Assembly (NCBI GenBank): GCA_017544725.1
Contig: JAFYDR010000305.1
Span: forward strand, 1-32,931
Source of the DNA: Kiritimatiellia bacterium
GTDB taxonomy: Bacteria; Verrucomicrobiota; Kiritimatiellia; RFP12; UBA1067
DNA: 32,931 nucleotides
Direction: 5' to 3'
Positions within the stretch are counted from its first letter, which is position 1. Each line of letters opens with the position of its first letter. Positions 331 to 22,813 of this stretch are shown one piece after another. The translations under genes and the position numbers were made by a program. The notes under the pieces were generated by a model, which saw only the letters and a list, made by a program, of their open reading frames with translations, did no database searches and was not told where the DNA came from.

Positions 331-2007
331 TCACGGAACCGGGAAACGCGCCACTAGCTGCGAGACCTCGGCGTGTACTTTCCTCTGCAACTCTTCATTC
401 TCGACATCGCCCAGGATGTTGCAGATCCAGTTTCCAATCTGCTCCATCTCCGAAAGCCCCATGCCGCGCGTCGTGACGGAAGCGGTTCCGATTCGGATGC
501 CGGATGTGACGAACGGGCTGTTCTGGTCGAACGGAATGGTGTTCTTGTTGCAGATAATTCCCGCATTGTCCAGCGCCGCCGCCGCGACCTTGCCTGTCAA
601 ACCGCTCTTGGCGACATTCACCAGCAACAGATGGTTGTCCGTACCGCCAGACACCAAGTGGAAGCCCCGCCGCAGGAAGATGTCCGCCAACGCTTTGCAG
701 TTCTTCACCACGTTCGCCGCATACTCCTTGAACGCCGGTTGCAGCGCCTCGCGGAAGCAGACCGCCTTACCCGCAATGATGTTCTCCAACGGGCCGCCCT
801 GCATTCCCGGAAACACCGCCTTGTCCAATGCCTTCCCGTACTTCTCTTTGCACATCACCAAGCCGCCGCGCGGTCCGCGCAACGTCTTGTGTGTTGTCGT
901 TGTCACGAAGTCAGCATACGGCACCGGACTCGGATGAGCACCGCCCGCGACCAATCCCGCGATATGCGCCATATCGACCACGAAGATCGCGCCGACTTTG
1001 TCCGCAATCGCACGAAAACGTGCAAAGTCGATCGTACGCGGGTAAGCGCTGGCGCCCGCCAAAATCAACTGAGGTTTGACCTCCAGAGCCTGTTTCTCCA
1101 GCGCATCGTAGTCCAGCATCTCCGTCTCCGGGGAAACGCCGTAAGGCACAATGTTGTATAGTTTGCCGGAGAAATTCACTGGCGAACCGTGCGACAGGTG
1201 ACCGCCCTGATCCAGACTCATCGACAGGATCGTGTCGCCAGGATTCAACACGGAGAAATAGACTGCCATATTCGCCGAAGACCCGCAGTGCGGTTGCACA
1301 TTGACATGCTCTGCACCAAACAACTCCTTTGCACGTTCAATCGCCAGCGTCTCAACCGCATCGACAGGGAGGCATCCACTGTACCAACGATGCGCGGGAT
1401 ACCCTTCCGCATACTTGTTCATCAGCACGCTGCCGGACGCCATGCGCACCGCTTTCGACGACGTATTCTCAGAGGCGATCAGGTTGATCGTCGTATCCTC
1501 CTGCGCAATCTGGCCTTTGATCGCATCGTAGATTTCTCGATCGACCTCCGCCAGATACGCTACCTCCGAGACACGCGCTCCACGCTCCGCCTTCTCTAGA
1601 CGACGGACGTGCCGTTCCCCGTTCGAGAACGGCGTAGAAAGGAACGTCTCCGCAATCTCTACGGCGGTCTCTGCTGACAACGAGCCGGGAAGAGTCAACA
1701 CGTTCGCGTTGTTGTGCGAACGAGTCAACTCCGCCTTCTCCGCCGTGTCGCAAACCGCAGCACGGATTCCCGCAAAACGGTTCGCCGCGATCGACATACC
1801 GATACCCGTCTTGCAGACAAGAATCGCCATATCCGCACGGCCTTCGGTTACCGCTTGAGCAGCCGGAACCGCATAGTCAGGGTAGTCCACAGAGTTCTCG
1901 TCATCCGTCCCCAGGTCTTCCACCTGATCTCCGCGCCTACGCAAAAAATCCAAAATCGCGGCTTTCACAGCCAAGCCGCCATGGTCGCATCCAAGTATGA
2001 CTTTCAT
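331..2007 (-). CDS. Fusion of ribose-5-phosphate isomerase B and serine hydroxymethyltransferase
   Basis: This 558-residue protein has two complete enzymes in one chain. Residues 1-140 are RpiB: GCDHGG at 6-11, catalytic cysteine C65 in [10 protein letters not shown] (most RpiBs have CGTGIG), and SHNNANVL near 98. RpiB interconverts ribose-5-phosphate and ribulose-5-phosphate. Residues about 150-558 are SHMT (PLP enzyme, serine + THF to glycine + methylene-THF): LIASEN at 177-182, NKYAEGYP near 198, DMAH at 345-348 and the PLP lysine K374 in [14 protein letters not shown]. About 410 residues is normal for a whole SHMT, and no stop or frameshift separates the halves. The SHMT substrate loop reads HRWYSGC where most have K-R-Y-Y-G-G-C. 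The ATG follows GGAGAAAA. An NDT-like gene follows 8 bases downstream. Both motif sets look intact, so both activities are probably live. Confidence 0.93.
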
Positions 2008-2042: not shown

Positions 2043-2072
2043 ATCATACCATTCTTCCCGCATTCAAGGCAA
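2043..2072 (-). promoter_or_regulatory. Candidate sigma70 promoter of the RpiB-SHMT gene
   Basis: On the minus strand, TTGCCT (2072-2067) is followed after 18 bases by TATGAT (2048-2043), about 35 bases ahead of the ATG at 2007. The -10 is good; the -35 is weaker. No riboswitch-like fold was recognised in the short leader. Confidence 0.45.
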
Positions 2073-2182
2073 GAATGGAATTCCAGCTATGGAGAAGCGC
2101 CGTTGCGAGGGCGCATCTGCGTATTTCACCCATTCCGTACACACGAGAGGATTTTGGAAACAACAGGAACAACTTGAAGACA

Positions 2183-2197
2183 GGCGGCAAAGCCGCC
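2183..2197. repeat. GGCGGC-type short hairpin
   Basis: Perfect 6-bp stem GGCGGC-AAA-GCCGCC. It is one of several hairpins with this core in the window (also 15669, 17648, 22363, 25476), here inside the MITE-like element. Confidence 0.7.
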
Positions 2198-2238
2198 AGC
2201 TGAGAAGCTGAAAAGCTGAGAGGCTAACAGAGAAGCGG

Positions 2239-2276
2239 GGCGGCAATGAAGAGAGAAAAATGAAGAATGAAGGATG
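2239..2276. repeat. Dispersed GGCGGCAATGAAGAATGAA-type intergenic repeat
   Basis: A 38-bp block that aligns with 15629-15666 in the same orientation with few mismatches. Both start GGCGGCAATGAAGA and continue with degenerate TGAAGAATGAA units. Related degenerate units occur at 15684-15708 and 29804-29833. It is non-coding; six-frame readings give only low-complexity peptides. Confidence 0.65.
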
Positions 2277-2537
2277 TCGCGTGTCGTTTGTTGCGTGTCA
2301 TCAAAAATATTCGAATGGGAGTGACGCGCTTCGTCGCATCCGTTGCGTGACGACGATGCCATGGTTGACGAAATCGAAAGTTATCCCCATGAACGTTCTC
2401 GCGCACGGTGAGAGCGAGTTAGCCCGCGCTCTAAAGACAAGTTGTTTTTTTAAGTTGTTTCTGTTGTTTTCATTTTCAAAAAACGACAGCGAAAAACACA
2501 GATGCGCCCGCCGTTGCGATGTTAGGCGCGCTTTTGC

Positions 2538-2566
2538 TTGATTCAGGATGATGATTTTGCTATGGT
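2538..2566 (+). promoter_or_regulatory. Candidate sigma70 promoter of the small protein-M16 peptidase unit
   Basis: TTGATT (2538-2543), 17-base spacer, TATGGT (2561-2566). It lies just outside the right direct repeat of the MITE-like element. Transcription would start near 2573 and leave a leader of about 138 bases before the ATG at 2711. Confidence 0.5.
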
Positions 2567-2710: not shown

Positions 2711-2947
2711 ATGAAAGAACAAAAGCTTGTCTGTTTTAATGTGGATACGAATCCTACAAAATGGGATGTACCATTGTATGCGGATTTTGCTGCGGGTTGG
2801 CGTATTGTTTCCTATCAAACGGCAGGTGCTGGTGCTGGTGGTAAATACAGAGACGTCTATGGATTTCTTGTCACTGTCTTACTCGAAAGAGATCCGGTAA
2901 AAAAGCCCACTTCGCCAAAGAAATCGCCCAAAAACAAAGCATTATGA
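2711..2947 (+). CDS. Small protein of unknown function (78 aa)
   Basis: I chose the ATG at 2711 because GGGAGG lies 6 bases upstream; an in-frame TTG at 2576 would add 45 residues but has no ribosome binding site. The protein has a compact front half with W18 and W30 and a central IVSYQTAGAGAGG stretch followed by YGFLVTVLLER. It ends in a lysine/proline-rich tail (KKPTSPKKSPKNK). There is no signal peptide, membrane segment or cysteine pair. It ends 24 bases before the M16 peptidase start, so the two probably share a transcript. Codon use resembles the neighbours. I do not recognise a family; the Gly-rich motif followed by a hydrophobic strand suggests a small folded beta-rich protein, which is a guess. 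Confidence 0.6.
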   Translation: MKEQKLVCFNVDTNPTKWDVPLYADFAAGWRIVSYQTAGAGAGGKYRDVYGFLVTVLLERDPVKKPTSPKKSPKNKAL

Positions 2948-2971: not shown

Positions 2972-5827
2972 GTGATTGCGGAAATCGCTGCGGTGATGTT
3001 TGGGTTCAAAGTCGAGTCCATTACGAATGTTCCGGATGTCAATGGCCGGTTGTGGCGGATGACGTACGAGAAGAACGGGGCGGAGCTGGTGTGGCTTGAG
3101 CGCGATGACGAGGTGAAGACGTTCGTCATCGCGTTCAAGACGTTGCCGGAGGACGACACAGGCGTGGCGCACATCCTGGAACACTCGGTTCTGGCGGGTT
3201 CCGAGAAGTATCCGGTCAAGAGTCCGTTCGACGAGATGCGCAAGAGTTCTGTCCGTGTGTTCATGAATGCGATGACGGCGCGGGACGTGACCTTCTATCC
3301 GTTCTCGACACGCAACGACAAGGACTTCCTGAATCTTGCCGACGTGTACCTCGACGCCGTGTTCCATCCGCTCTCGATCCGAAACCCGTTGCCTTTCAGG
3401 CAGGAAGGCTGGCATTACGAGCTAGATGCGAAGACAAAGAATCTCTCCGTAAACGGCGTCGTTTTCAACGAAATGAAGGGTGTGTACGCTTTGCCGGACA
3501 GTATCGCCTATCGGGAACTGATCTGCGCCCTGTATCCCGATGTCGTCTATGGACATGACTCGGGCGGGAAACCGGAGAATATCCCGGACCTCACGTATGA
3601 GAAGTACCGTGCATTCCACAGACGGTTCTACCATCCCTCCAACGCCCGGATTTTTCTAGACGGCAGGATTGAAATCAACGACATCCTCAAAAAGTTGGAT
3701 GCCGTACTTTCACCATACGACCGGCTTGAGGTTAACGCACACATCGGTTTGCAGGCACCGGTTTCGAGGTCGTTGCGCCTACCGTATGAATCGGCGAACT
3801 GCGACCACAAGACGATATTTGTACTGGGATGGTCCGTTGGAACAATCACCGATGACCCCGCATATATCCATGCGCTGGATATCTTGGTCGAATATCTGTG
3901 CGGCTCGAATGAAGCTCCTTTGAAAAAAGCGTTGCTCAAGAAGCATTTGTGCAAGGATGTTTCGATGGGCAATATCGAGTACAAGCAGATCCCCCTGTAT
4001 CTTATCTTGAAGGACACATCCGATGAACAGCTTGACGAATGCAGGAAGGTTGTCCGGGAGACGTTGGAGAAAATTGCCACGGAAGGATTTGACAAGGATC
4101 GGCTAGGGGCCATCATCAACAGGGACGAATTCTCTGAACGAGAGTTGAATACAAGTCGCCCGAAAGGGTTGCATTATTTTTCACGGGTCTTGCGACAATG
4201 GTTGTATGGCAGAGATCCGTTACCGACGTTGAACCTGACGGAAACCTATCGCAGACTTCGCGAGGGGGTTACGGACGGCTGGTTCGAGAAGATCGTCCGC
4301 GAGCAGATATTGGCGAGCGGACACAAAATCGAAGTTGTTCTGACGCCTGACGCAGGGTTGACAAAGGTGAAGGCGGATAAGGTTAAACGTGCTTTGCAAC
4401 AGAAGCGTGATGCCATGTCCGCAGAGGATCTGGCTGGTATCGCGAGTGAGGTACAACGCCTAAAAGAGTACCAGTCCCGTCCCGATACAAAAGAGGACAT
4501 TGAAAAGATTCCTCGCTTGACGAGCAAGGAACTTGCGCCCAAGGGGATTCCCTCGTACGGGAAAATGAAAGAGGTTGACGGAACGACGTACATTCAAACG
4601 AAGTCATCCGCCGATGGCGTGTTCTATCTGACGTTTTACTTTCCGATGGATGGATTCGAGGAGTCTGAGCTTCTGGGGATGCCATTGTTCGCGAGGCTTC
4701 ACGGCAAGCTGAGGACTTCAAAACACTCGGCATTCGAATTGCAGACACTGGTCGCGGCCAATATCGGCAGGCTTTTCTACTCCACGGTATCTACGGAGCG
4801 TGGACGGTATTTCAAGGTCACGATGGCGGGCTTGACGGGCAAGGCGCAGACGGCATTGGATCTTTTGTATGAGATTCTGTTTGAAACGCGGTTCGACGAT
4901 ACCCGGGAAATCGAGACAATTCTCCGGCAGAAACAACTGGACGCCGAGCGTAACGTCTCAGGGGACGGGCGTGAGTTGGGATTGCGGGTTACGAAGCGCA
5001 CTTTCTCCGAACGATGGGCAAGTGCGGATGTCCTTCAAGGCGAGAAGCAGTTGCGGTGGTTGCAGAACGCCAAGGCGGATGAACGGATGTCAAAATTCTA
5101 TCAGGGTATCGGCGAAAGGCTCTTCACGAAGGACGGATTGGTAGTGTCGTTTACCGACAATCTGCCGCTGGATATGGAAGCCGTTGTCCGCAAGGAATTC
5201 AATCAGGGCAAACAACCCAAGGTGAACATCGCCATTGCAGAACCTACGGAACAGGCGTTCTCGATCGCCGGGGATACCAGTTTCGCGGTATGGTCTGCGG
5301 AACTACCGGCGGGTGTCAGGTTGACGGGACCGATGCGCGTTGCCTGTAAGATACTATCGCTCGAATACCTACATCGCGAAGTGCGCGAAATCGGTGGCGC
5401 GTATGGAATCATGATCCAGGCAACGGCGAACGGGACGATAGACGGGTATTCCTATCGAGACCCCAATCCCGTCCGAACCATCCAGACAATCAGCAAGGTC
5501 GGAGAAGCCTTGCGGAAGTTTGTCAATTCGGGAGCGGATCTCGACCGGTATATCGTTTCGACAATCGCAGCGATGGAACCCTATCGTCCTCCAGCAGAAG
5601 AGGCGGCACGTGCGGCAGAGATGCACACGGAGCGCTGGAGCAACGAGGATGAGGACCGAATCCGCGCTGAAGTGCTGTCCACGACAAAGGAACAACTGCT
5701 GGAGGTCGCAACTATGCTGGACACCATTGCCCCCAAAGCGAAGACTTGCATCGTCGGCGGTGCGAAACAACTGTCCAACGTAAAAGCGAAAACCGTTGTA
5801 CCGGTCGTTCCCAAAGATACAAAATGA
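2972..5827 (+). CDS. M16C metallopeptidase, presequence-protease (PreP)-like
   Basis: A 951-residue zinc peptidase of the insulinase superfamily, close to the usual PreP length. The inverted zinc motif is H67-I-L-E70-H71, in the PreP-type context VAHILEHSVLAGSEKYPVKSPF without a break. The third ligand is E167 in VFNEMKG. A second, inactive-type half follows, with an RPPAEEAARAAE-type C-terminal helix. PreP-like enzymes form a closed chamber and degrade unfolded peptides of up to about 65 residues. There is no signal peptide, so cytoplasmic peptide turnover is likely. The start is GTG with AAGGAGG 6 bases upstream; the overlapping ATG at 2970 is followed at once by a stop. It lies between the small protein (24 bases) and the RAYT gene (45 bases). 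It appears full-length and functional. Confidence 0.93.
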   Translation: MIAEIAAVMFGFKVESITNVPDVNGRLWRMTYEKNGAELVWLERDDEVKTFVIAFKTLPEDDTGVAHILEHSVLAGSEKYPVKSPFDEMRKSSVRVFMNAMTARDVTFYPFSTRNDKDFLNLADVYLDAVFHPLSIRNPLPFRQEGWHYELDAKTKNLSVNGVVFNEMKGVYALPDSIAYRELICALYPDVVYGHDSGGKPENIPDLTYEKYRAFHRRFYHPSNARIFLDGRIEINDILKKLDAVLSPYDRLEVNAHIGLQAPVSRSLRLPYESANCDHKTIFVLGWSVGTITDDPAYIHALDILVEYLCGSNEAPLKKALLKKHLCKDVSMGNIEYKQIPLYLILKDTSDEQLDECRKVVRETLEKIATEGFDKDRLGAIINRDEFSERELNTSRPKGLHYFSRVLRQWLYGRDPLPTLNLTETYRRLREGVTDGWFEKIVREQILASGHKIEVVLTPDAGLTKVKADKVKRALQQKRDAMSAEDLAGIASEVQRLKEYQSRPDTKEDIEKIPRLTSKELAPKGIPSYGKMKEVDGTTYIQTKSSADGVFYLTFYFPMDGFEESELLGMPLFARLHGKLRTSKHSAFELQTLVAANIGRLFYSTVSTERGRYFKVTMAGLTGKAQTALDLLYEILFETRFDDTREIETILRQKQLDAERNVSGDGRELGLRVTKRTFSERWASADVLQGEKQLRWLQNAKADERMSKFYQGIGERLFTKDGLVVSFTDNLPLDMEAVVRKEFNQGKQPKVNIAIAEPTEQAFSIAGDTSFAVWSAELPAGVRLTGPMRVACKILSLEYLHREVREIGGAYGIMIQATANGTIDGYSYRDPNPVRTIQTISKVGEALRKFVNSGADLDRYIVSTIAAMEPYRPPAEEAARAAEMHTERWSNEDEDRIRAEVLSTTKEQLLEVATMLDTIAPKAKTCIVGGAKQLSNVKAKTVVPVVPKDTK

Positions 5828-5872
5828 AAGACTCTCGCACTTGCGGCTTCTTCGAGGGGAGTGGAGAGAGAT

Positions 5873-7051
5873 ATGCCTGATTATCCCATGAAAGAAACCA
5901 TCCATTCCATGCTCCGACGGTGCGTTGACTGGGATTATACGCAACCCTGCATCTACATGATCACAGTGGTGTTGGCAGACCGACAGAGCCAAGCGTTAGG
6001 TGCTGTAATCGGCGATGGCATCGCCGATCACGGAACGCATGGGGGTGGACTGCCAACAGCGGCACATTGCGAACTGACTGACTTGGGGAAGGCTGTAGAG
6101 CAATGTTGGGAGGCGATACCGCGCTTCTATCCGCAGATACAGATTCTGGGCAAGCAGGTGATGCCCGACCATTTCCACGGTATCCTGTGGGTGAAGGAAC
6201 CGCTTGCCTCTCACCTAGGGCACATCATCAAGGGGTTCAAGCTGGGATGCAACAAGGCTGCGCGAAGGATTACCAACAATATTGGCGAACAAGAAACCGG
6301 CCTCTTTGCCGAAGGCTTTCAGGACACCATCCTTTTCAGCCAAGGACAGCTCGAAAAGATGATCAGCTACATCAAGGCGAACCCGTTACGTCTCGCCATC
6401 AAGCGGGCGATACCGGGGCTGTTCACGATGGTAAGGAACCTCAAGGTTTCGGTGATGATATCACCGGAAACAGAACCCGCTGACCAGCGGATTCTCCATT
6501 TCACGGCCATCGGGAACAGATCGTTGCTAAAGCGACCGATGGTGCAGGTGCAATGCTCACGGCGATACCTCAACTACAAGCGCGTTCCAAAGCCCGGCGG
6601 CGGGCTGATGATTGCGCGTGATGCGGGCGGGGAGCCGATCATCGAATCCGTCACGCACGAATACGAAGAATTGCGCGACAGGCTTTTGGCGACAGCCCGT
6701 CACGGCGCAGTACTCATCTCACCCTGCATTTCCGACGGGGAACGGCAGATTGCCCGCGAGGCATTGAAGGCGGGGTTGCCGCTCGTCACCATGCAAAACA
6801 AAGGGTTCTCGAAACTGCAGAAGCCAAGCGGTCGATATTTCGATGCCTGCGCCGCAGGGCAACTCCTCATGCTCGCCCCCGCCGCATGGCCATACATTGT
6901 CGGCGAAAAGCGGATGACCCGCGATGACGCCCTCGCCATGAACCGACTCTGCCAATGGTTGGCTGGGGAGGGAGCCGCCTCAATCGACTACAAAGGGCGC
7001 ACACCGATCAATATCGACCGGATGGCACTCGATGCCGCAAGAGGGGCGTGA
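5873..7051 (+). CDS. REP-associated tyrosine transposase (RAYT, Y1/HUH family) with C-terminal DprA/SLOG-like region
   Basis: A 392-residue protein. The HUH motif is H100-F-H102 in MPDHFHGILWV, and the nucleophile is Y166 in MISYIKANP; these define the single-tyrosine Y1 transposase fold that cuts and joins single-stranded DNA at REP palindromes. Residues about 45-60 (VIGDGIADHGTHGGG) are encoded by a perfect palindrome (6008-6028) matching the ones downstream of the gene. Residues about 190-392 form an extra region with HGAVLISPCISDGERQIAREA and GLPLVTMQNKGF, which resembles a Rossmann/DprA-like nucleotide-binding fold; its role is unknown. The ATG at 5873 has GGAGAG upstream; an in-frame GTG at 5861 is the alternative. 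RAYTs are usually domesticated single-copy genes that maintain REP families rather than true insertion sequences. Confidence 0.88.
   Translation: MPDYPMKETIHSMLRRCVDWDYTQPCIYMITVVLADRQSQALGAVIGDGIADHGTHGGGLPTAAHCELTDLGKAVEQCWEAIPRFYPQIQILGKQVMPDHFHGILWVKEPLASHLGHIIKGFKLGCNKAARRITNNIGEQETGLFAEGFQDTILFSQGQLEKMISYIKANPLRLAIKRAIPGLFTMVRNLKVSVMISPETEPADQRILHFTAIGNRSLLKRPMVQVQCSRRYLNYKRVPKPGGGLMIARDAGGEPIIESVTHEYEELRDRLLATARHGAVLISPCISDGERQIAREALKAGLPLVTMQNKGFSKLQKPSGRYFDACAAGQLLMLAPAAWPYIVGEKRMTRDDALAMNRLCQWLAGEGAASIDYKGRTPINIDRMALDAARGA
6008..6028 (+). repeat. REP-like palindrome inside the RAYT coding sequence
   Basis: Arms ATCGGCGATG and CATCGCCGAT around one central G form a perfect 10-bp stem. 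It is followed by CACGGAAC and a GGGGG-TGGAC stretch, echoing AACAGAAC and GGGGGAC after the copy at 7070-7090. It is read in frame as part of the transposase. Confidence 0.75.
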
Positions 7052-22387: not shown

Positions 22388-22434
22388 CTAAAACAAAATC
22401 GATGGCAACCGATCGTATTCGGTTGCCATCGATT
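22388..22434 (-). terminator. Intrinsic terminator for the pyrE operon (perfect 16-bp stem)
   Basis: Arms 22397-22412 (AATCGATGGCAACCGA) and 22419-22434 pair perfectly around the 6-base loop TCGTAT. On the minus strand the stem is followed by TTGTTTTA (22396-22389). It would stop transcripts coming from the GH20-like gene, and its hairpin may also end rtcB transcripts. The left end of MITE-like copy 2 is inserted against its right arm. Confidence 0.65.
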
Positions 22435-22435
22435 C

Positions 22436-22722
22436 GGACACATCTGCGTAATTCACCGTCGTCTTTTGAAAATGAAAACAACAGAAACAACTTAAAAAAC
22501 AACTTGTCTTTAGGGCGCGGGCTAACTCGCCGCGCTCCAATAGTTGATCCCATAAAAGCAACTGGGCAATGATACCAAATGATTATCGCGGTAAAGGCGA
22601 AGGAAAAGTGATGCGCGGACCGGTTGGTCCGCGTACCTCTTTCAGCTGTTGTATTCAGGTTGTTCCTGTTGTTTCCAAAATCCTCTCGTGCGCATGAGAT
22701 GGGTGAAAAACGCAGATGCGCC
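22436..22722. mobile_element. MITE-like inverted-repeat element, copy 2 (opposite orientation to copy 1)
   Basis: A 287-bp non-coding element. Its left module (22436-22540) matches the right module of copy 1, including GAAAACAACAGAAACAACTT, CAACTTGTCTTTAG and a GGGCTAACTCGC hairpin. Its right module (22645-22722), read on the minus strand, matches the left module of copy 1: GGCGCATCTGCG, ACGAGAGGATTTTGG, AACAACAGGAACAAC. The terminal repeat on the left is decayed (GGACACATCTGCG). Flanking CCATCGATTC (22426-22435) and CCATCGACTC (22723-22732) form a one-mismatch direct repeat. The interior differs from copy 1 and is shorter. It has no coding potential and lies between convergent rtcB and the GH20-like gene. 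Confidence 0.72.
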
Positions 22723-22813
22723 CCATCGACTCCACTTTCCGACAACAGAAAGTCCTGTCGATGGTGCTCTTCTCAAAACTCAAGGCTTCGAGCTCGAATC
22801 TGGCGGTAGCACC

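Follow-up and report, generated by a model that had tools for sequence, protein, structure and literature searches.

The insertion sites of a family of short repeated elements in the genome of an uncultured rumen bacterium are non-random: the -35 box of a sigma-70 promoter lies 27 bp from the tip of the element, and hence 18 bp from the target-site duplication. The short elements share their tips, the 9-bp duplication and this insertion geometry with 1.8-kb transposase-bearing elements of related genera. We consider it highly probable that the short elements are non-autonomous miniature elements (MITEs) moved in trans by a DDE transposase of the ISKra4 group, which aims its insertions at promoters. 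The first-pass annotation of the DNA did not include the main point of this study, namely the constant spacing between the element and a sigma-70 promoter downstream of it.

An inserted element and its family in the host genome

The host genome is a Kiritimatiellae-type MAG of 3.8 Mb (366 contigs, about 75% complete). The window, i.e., the whole 32,931-nucleotide stretch analysed, corresponds to contig C249, and its features of interest are listed in Table 1. The first-pass annotation had described a non-coding block of 400 bp lacking a transposase, with a perfect 11-bp flanking duplication and ends forming inverted repeats over about 65-95 bp, and had taken it for an insertion. The block is 401 bp long and its interior contains only mechanical ORFs. 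A single gapped local alignment of the two ends covers about 61-70 bp; the ends comprise a 19-bp tip block (89%) and an inner 24-bp block with an AACAAC motif (88%). The 11-bp repeat CGCCGTTGCGA is exact at both positions (2098-2108 and 2509-2519). However, since the inverted repeat ends in ...GCGCCC (GGGCGC...GCGCCC), the first C of the right repeat is the tip base, and the duplication proper is the 10-bp sequence GCCGTTGCGA, one base longer than the 9 bp usual in the family. No known RNA family was found in the window. The possibility that the block is a REP/RAYT unit or an integron attC site was set aside on its features (target duplication, long terminal repeats). Elsewhere in the window, the ORF at 5861-7051 (+) carries an HFH motif recalling REP-associated Y1 transposases, with no Pfam match at E<=0.001.

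Table 1. Position and nature of the features of the window discussed in the text (offset, distance from the element tip).
Feature	Coordinates	Strand	Details
RpiB-serine hydroxymethyltransferase (SHMT) fusion	334..2007	-	one 558-aa frame; Pfam LacAB_rpiB 3-139, SHMT 152-528
Predicted promoter of the divergent rpiB-SHMT gene	2043..2072	-	TTGCCT-18-TATGAT; on the other side of the element
Target-site duplication, left copy	2099..2108	+	GCCGTTGCGA; 2098-2108 (11 bp) when the C shared with the tip is counted in
Non-autonomous element (MITE)	2109..2509	.	401 bp; tips GGGCGCATCTG/CAGATGCGCCC, inverted; further copies in the host genome by blastn; 45-copy comparison
Left terminal/subterminal inverted repeat	2109..2178	+	tip GGGCGCATCTGCGTATTTCACCC and TGGAAACAACAGGAACAACTTGAA; conserved among copies
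Right terminal/subterminal inverted repeat	2449..2509	-	tip GGGCGCATCTGTGTTTTTCGC and TGAAAACAACAGAAACAACTTAAA (minus strand)
Target-site duplication, right copy	2510..2519	+	GCCGTTGCGA
Predicted sigma-70 promoter	2538..2566	+	TTGATT (2538-2543)-17 bp-TATGGT (2561-2566); 9.6 bits, offset 28
Small ORF	2711..2947	+	78 aa, no family; GGGAGG before it; first after the targeted promoter
M16C (PreP-like) peptidase	2972..5827	+	Pfam; next gene after the targeted promoter
Second family copy	22436..22723	.	288 bp; 9-bp duplication CATCGATTC/CATCGACTC at 22427-22435 and 22724-22732

Using blastn, the block was found at about 40 places in its own genome, with the left 75 bp and the right 96 bp in common (the last 96 bp being the most conserved part of the family) and variable middles. 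The tip pattern GGGCGCATCTGYGTNNTTC gave 310 matches with up to 3 mismatches, versus 14 for the reversed-pattern control, which corresponds to about 150 elements, including solo and decayed ends; for 41 of 141 tips, no partner lay within 700 bp. The 45 complete copies, of 202-475 bp, can be grouped by size into several classes, the best defined of which (about 263 bp) shows an internal identity of 84-95%. No two of the fully aligned copies are identical, indicating that the burst did not happen very recently. Of the 45 copies, 38% are flanked by a 9-bp duplication (8 or more of 9 positions matching), versus 0.0% of mispaired flanks, and no other length is comparably raised; a clear duplication is missing in more than half of the copies. 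An element with 45 complete copies, common ends and such duplications cannot be attributed to chance. The first-pass annotation had proposed a search for further copies with 10-11-bp flanking duplications; there are many such copies, with duplications of 9 bp. A REP-like palindrome, GCGCGGGCTAACTCGCCCGCGC, and other intergenic repeats are nested inside many of the MITEs (for example at 2406-2440 in the window and in L070), and the core of this palindrome occurs in 24 of the 45 copies.

The goat rumen isolate 'Kiritimatiellae bacterium isolate RGIG3447' (apparently genome G001, as the two give identical places), a congener whose neighbouring peptidase is 83% identical, offered five orthologous loci with aligned neighbouring genes, and the element is absent from all of them. 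At the window locus, the congener is 89% identical up to position 2086 and the alignment resumes in the peptidase gene, the block being missing. Other copies were compared using joined flanks: for L220, L025, L079 and the second copy in the window, the neighbouring genes could be aligned on either side (83-88%), with no element between them. At L220, the alignment of the congener's left flank reaches the edge of the duplication, and the promoter is present in that flank, so that the promoter came first. The intergenic DNA is too diverged for a perfect two-sided empty site in congeners. The RpiB-serine hydroxymethyltransferase locus also occurs in a congener. Together, the 45 copies with common ends, the 9-bp duplications and the loci without the element uphold the proposal of an insertion. 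The family combines terminal inverted repeats, a duplication of constant length, multiple unrelated sites and absence from orthologous sites, as MITEs do, and it has autonomous relatives with the same ends in genomes other than the host (G004, G036 and G241).

Insertion at a fixed distance from sigma-70 promoters

The outward flanks of 138 distinct tips of the host genome, taken unselected, were scanned for sigma-70 promoters. In 47 of them the -35 box starts exactly 27 bp outside the tip, that is 18 bp past the duplication, and offsets 22-30 account for 83 promoter hits versus 3.3 expected, while the opposite strand yields at most 3 hits at every offset. The same picture emerged from a model-free analysis of base composition, where p fell below 1e-4 only at offsets 18, 27-29, 31, 51 and 53 (best p 1e-13); offsets 27-29 and 31 spell TTG.C, and offsets 51 and 53 lie within TATAAT. 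The sigma-70 promoter is the only strong sequence signal in these flanks. In 36 of 44 complete copies, one end or both has a promoter at offset 24-30, and either orientation of the element occurs.

The promoters look real, on two grounds. First, a gene with a Shine-Dalgarno sequence follows 56 of 70 promoter-bearing flanks versus 23 of 61 flanks without a promoter (p=1e-6); a test of downstream genes by ORFs only, with no Shine-Dalgarno filter, discriminated poorly. Second, one targeted promoter precedes the tmRNA. In the window, the predicted promoter begins 18 bp past the duplication, at offset 28 for a family-wide peak at 27; a plain consensus scanner did not list it, so that this single case rests on the family-wide pattern. 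For the second window copy, the promoter score at offset 27 is just 5.2 bits.

A duplication is lacking in all nine copies that are flanked by promoters on both sides (e.g., L016, L017, L022, L080, L206, L212, L223 and L243) and present in 18 of 27 one-promoter copies (Fisher p=0.001). This suggests that the former arose from two different insertions, brought together by misassembly or by recombination between copies, which explains part of the missing duplications and does not weaken the insertion model. Such chimeric or recombined junctions, and the many tips found at contig ends of this fragmented MAG, are what one would expect if the copies as a whole were an assembly artefact. We give this explanation almost no credence, for there are copies with intact duplications, a promoter on one side and gene-conserved flanks, and several independent MAGs contain related copies.

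Transposase-bearing relatives and the probable helper

A helper encoded elsewhere in the genome had been postulated in the first-pass annotation, which suggested looking for a full-length, transposase-encoding element with identical ends. Such elements exist in related genera; none was found in the MAG of the host, about 75% complete. A tip-pattern search over 57 family genomes led to G004 C42:7193-8996, an element of 1804 bp with MITE-type ends that encodes a 438-aa transposase and a divergent 110-aa DUF6788 protein. A complete copy of 1805 bp, flanked by the duplication CCGCGTTTT and also carrying the DUF6788 gene, was found in G036 C78, its transposase being 93% identical to that of G004, and G241 contains a decayed copy (70%, duplication ATTGCTTAT). 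The 22-bp tips are the same in the G004 and G036 elements and in the MITEs. The DUF6788 gene is present in the two intact close copies of the 1.8-kb insertion sequence (IS); such a divergent gene lies beside the transposase gene in L093 (494-2297) and L099 (111-1915). More distant transposases (about 40-45%) have related tips such as GGGCGCATCCCCGTT, indicating that the ends change with the enzyme.

The following lines of evidence bear on the class of this transposase. First, it matches the ISKra4 model with E=2.5e-43 and 148.8 bits, which is under the curated cut-off of 205 yet above the scores obtained with the ISLre2 (50.6) and ISH6 (39.5) models, so that we file it as ISKra4-like and not as a member. 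Second, the DDE triad (D185, D274 and E393) is invariant in an alignment of 11 sequences, and the fold is RNase-H/Mutator-like: the sole PDB match of the AlphaFold model (pLDDT 83.9) with E below 0.001 is the transposase of ISCth4 (6xg8, E=1.1e-9), an IS256-family enzyme. Third, as in ISKra4 elements, the ends are symmetric inverted repeats flanked by 8-9-bp duplications (9 bp in L099, L245 and L104; 8 bp in L100). Fourth, the insertions lie upstream of sigma-A promoters, at 27 bp from the tip, versus the published 13-17 bp from the junction. Neither a best match to ISLre2 nor one fixed orientation relative to the promoter, the marks of TnGBS/ISLre2 (p-MULT 3), was found.

The -35 box starts at exactly 27 in six independent IS ends (L099, L093, L114, L267, L285 and L245), and also in L104, an ISKra4-like element with 30% identity and the duplication TGCAAAAGA. 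Two relatives, L250 and L246, have spacings of 16 and 21, so the subgroup is not uniform in this respect. In the same genus, the ISKra4-type element L119 (G002 C90; duplication GGAAAGTCA) has a promoter 17 bp from its tip, which is the published spacing, in this one case. Cyanobacterial plasmid relatives, tried as spacing controls, had clear ends in one of six cases (duplication TTTGTTGAC) with no strong promoter. Viral contigs contained no relative of the transposase and no tips.

The agreement of ends, duplication length and target spacing between MITEs and IS is the strongest evidence for the class of the helper. One may object that a different, unseen transposase moves the MITEs, its ends and target preference being shared by chance, because the sequence common to MITEs and IS is just the terminal 22 bp or so and no helper was found in the host MAG or in congeners. 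The searches for the ISKra4 transposase (tblastn, ISKra4 HMM) and for the DUF6788 gene (DUF6788 HMM) were indeed negative in the host MAG, about 75% complete; no intact copy of either gene was found in a 97%-complete congener; and the one tip pair 0.7-4.5 kb apart among the host loci analysed encloses no recognisable transposase. Two tips 2 kb apart in G001 C107, considered as a candidate IS, enclose a host gene and no transposase. However, in G026 an IS end and its DUF6788 gene are located at the edge of a contig, and the assembly lacks the transposase, showing how a helper escapes a MAG, so that its absence from the host MAG is weak evidence. As tips, 9-bp duplication and 27-bp promoter spacing all match those of the ISKra4-like IS in G004, G036 and G241, we regard an unseen transposase of another kind as improbable. 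The limited common sequence, about 22 bp at each end, does not establish descent of the MITEs from this particular IS.

The location of most copies upstream of promoters and their conserved subterminal blocks could also be explained if the elements were domesticated regulatory modules kept by selection, the spacing reflecting function and not target choice. We judge this very improbable, for the autonomous IS has exactly the same spacing, the copies occur in either orientation, the duplications show insertion, and orthologous loci lack the element.

A proposed promoter-reading transposition system

We propose that the MITE is mobilised in trans by a DDE transposase of the ISKra4 group (prokaryotic Mutator-like, p-MULT 4), with the inverted ends GGGCGCATCTGYGT as its recognition sequence. 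The transposase, or its complex with both ends, would read the promoter-bound RNA polymerase or the promoter DNA, and would cut at about -63/-54, just upstream of the polymerase footprint. Such cuts would leave untouched the proximal UP region, represented by the A/T signal near offsets 18-22. The result would be copies lying in intergenic DNA, core promoters left intact and regulatory sites farther upstream separated off; contact with sites beyond about -62 would probably be lost upon insertion. The copies would have spread while the lineage had the helper, which may since have been lost from the host genome or may have remained unassembled.

Insertion upstream of sigma-A promoters has been reported for TnGBS/ISLre2 elements and for some of the ISKra4 group; the insertions are flanked by 8-9-bp duplications and, where the ends are symmetric, occur in both orientations (Guerillot et al. 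2014, PMC3942029). The present elements agree with this in every respect. The published spacing is 13-17 bp from the IR-genome junction (PMC3942029), and a later paper gives 15-16 bp (PMC4701971). The present elements resemble ISKra4 (PMC3942029) in their DDE transposase matching the ISKra4 model, near-perfect inverted ends of about 20 bp, 8-9-bp duplications, location upstream of sigma-A promoters in either orientation and occasional extra genes. They differ in the score of the transposase, below the curated cut-off, in the divergent DUF6788 gene, in the large accompanying MITE family and in the -35 box starting 27 bp from the tip, versus 13-17 bp from the IR-genome junction. TnGBS/ISLre2 elements likewise insert 15-17 bp upstream of the sigma-A -35 box, with a Mutator-like DDE transposase (PF06782) and 8-9-bp duplications, but they are ICEs or IS with asymmetric ends and a fixed orientation, mostly from Firmicutes, and their transposase is less similar. 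With the MITEs of other bacterial IS families, the present ones share small size, the lack of coding sequence, inverted ends, flanking duplications, high copy number and a helper acting in trans. A non-exhaustive literature search yielded no paper describing bacterial MITEs targeted to promoters, and both the high-copy promoter-targeted MITE family and its longer spacing appear to be undescribed. If the published figures count from the end of the IR, the present family lies about one helical turn farther out (27 from the tip, 18 from the duplication). A bolder reading, which we advance only tentatively and hold to be rather doubtful, is that these elements form a separate promoter-reading branch of Mutator-like transposition. 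It would address the same face of the promoter complex as ISKra4/TnGBS but farther upstream, with a -35 spacing about one helical turn longer, and its genome-wide set of MITEs would mark, and possibly insulate, more than 100 promoters.

Only a small number of transposases are known to target promoters. Here, roughly a hundred natural insertions in one genome allow the target geometry to be resolved at single-base precision, with a sharp 27-bp peak and a promoter logo emerging from unselected flanks, and the spacing common to MITEs and IS links the non-autonomous family with the class of its helper. Whether the transposase touches RNA polymerase can now be tested directly, and an enzyme that inserts next to promoters while sparing genes is a candidate for laboratory use. 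In this uncultured rumen lineage, the tips can be used as a promoter finder.
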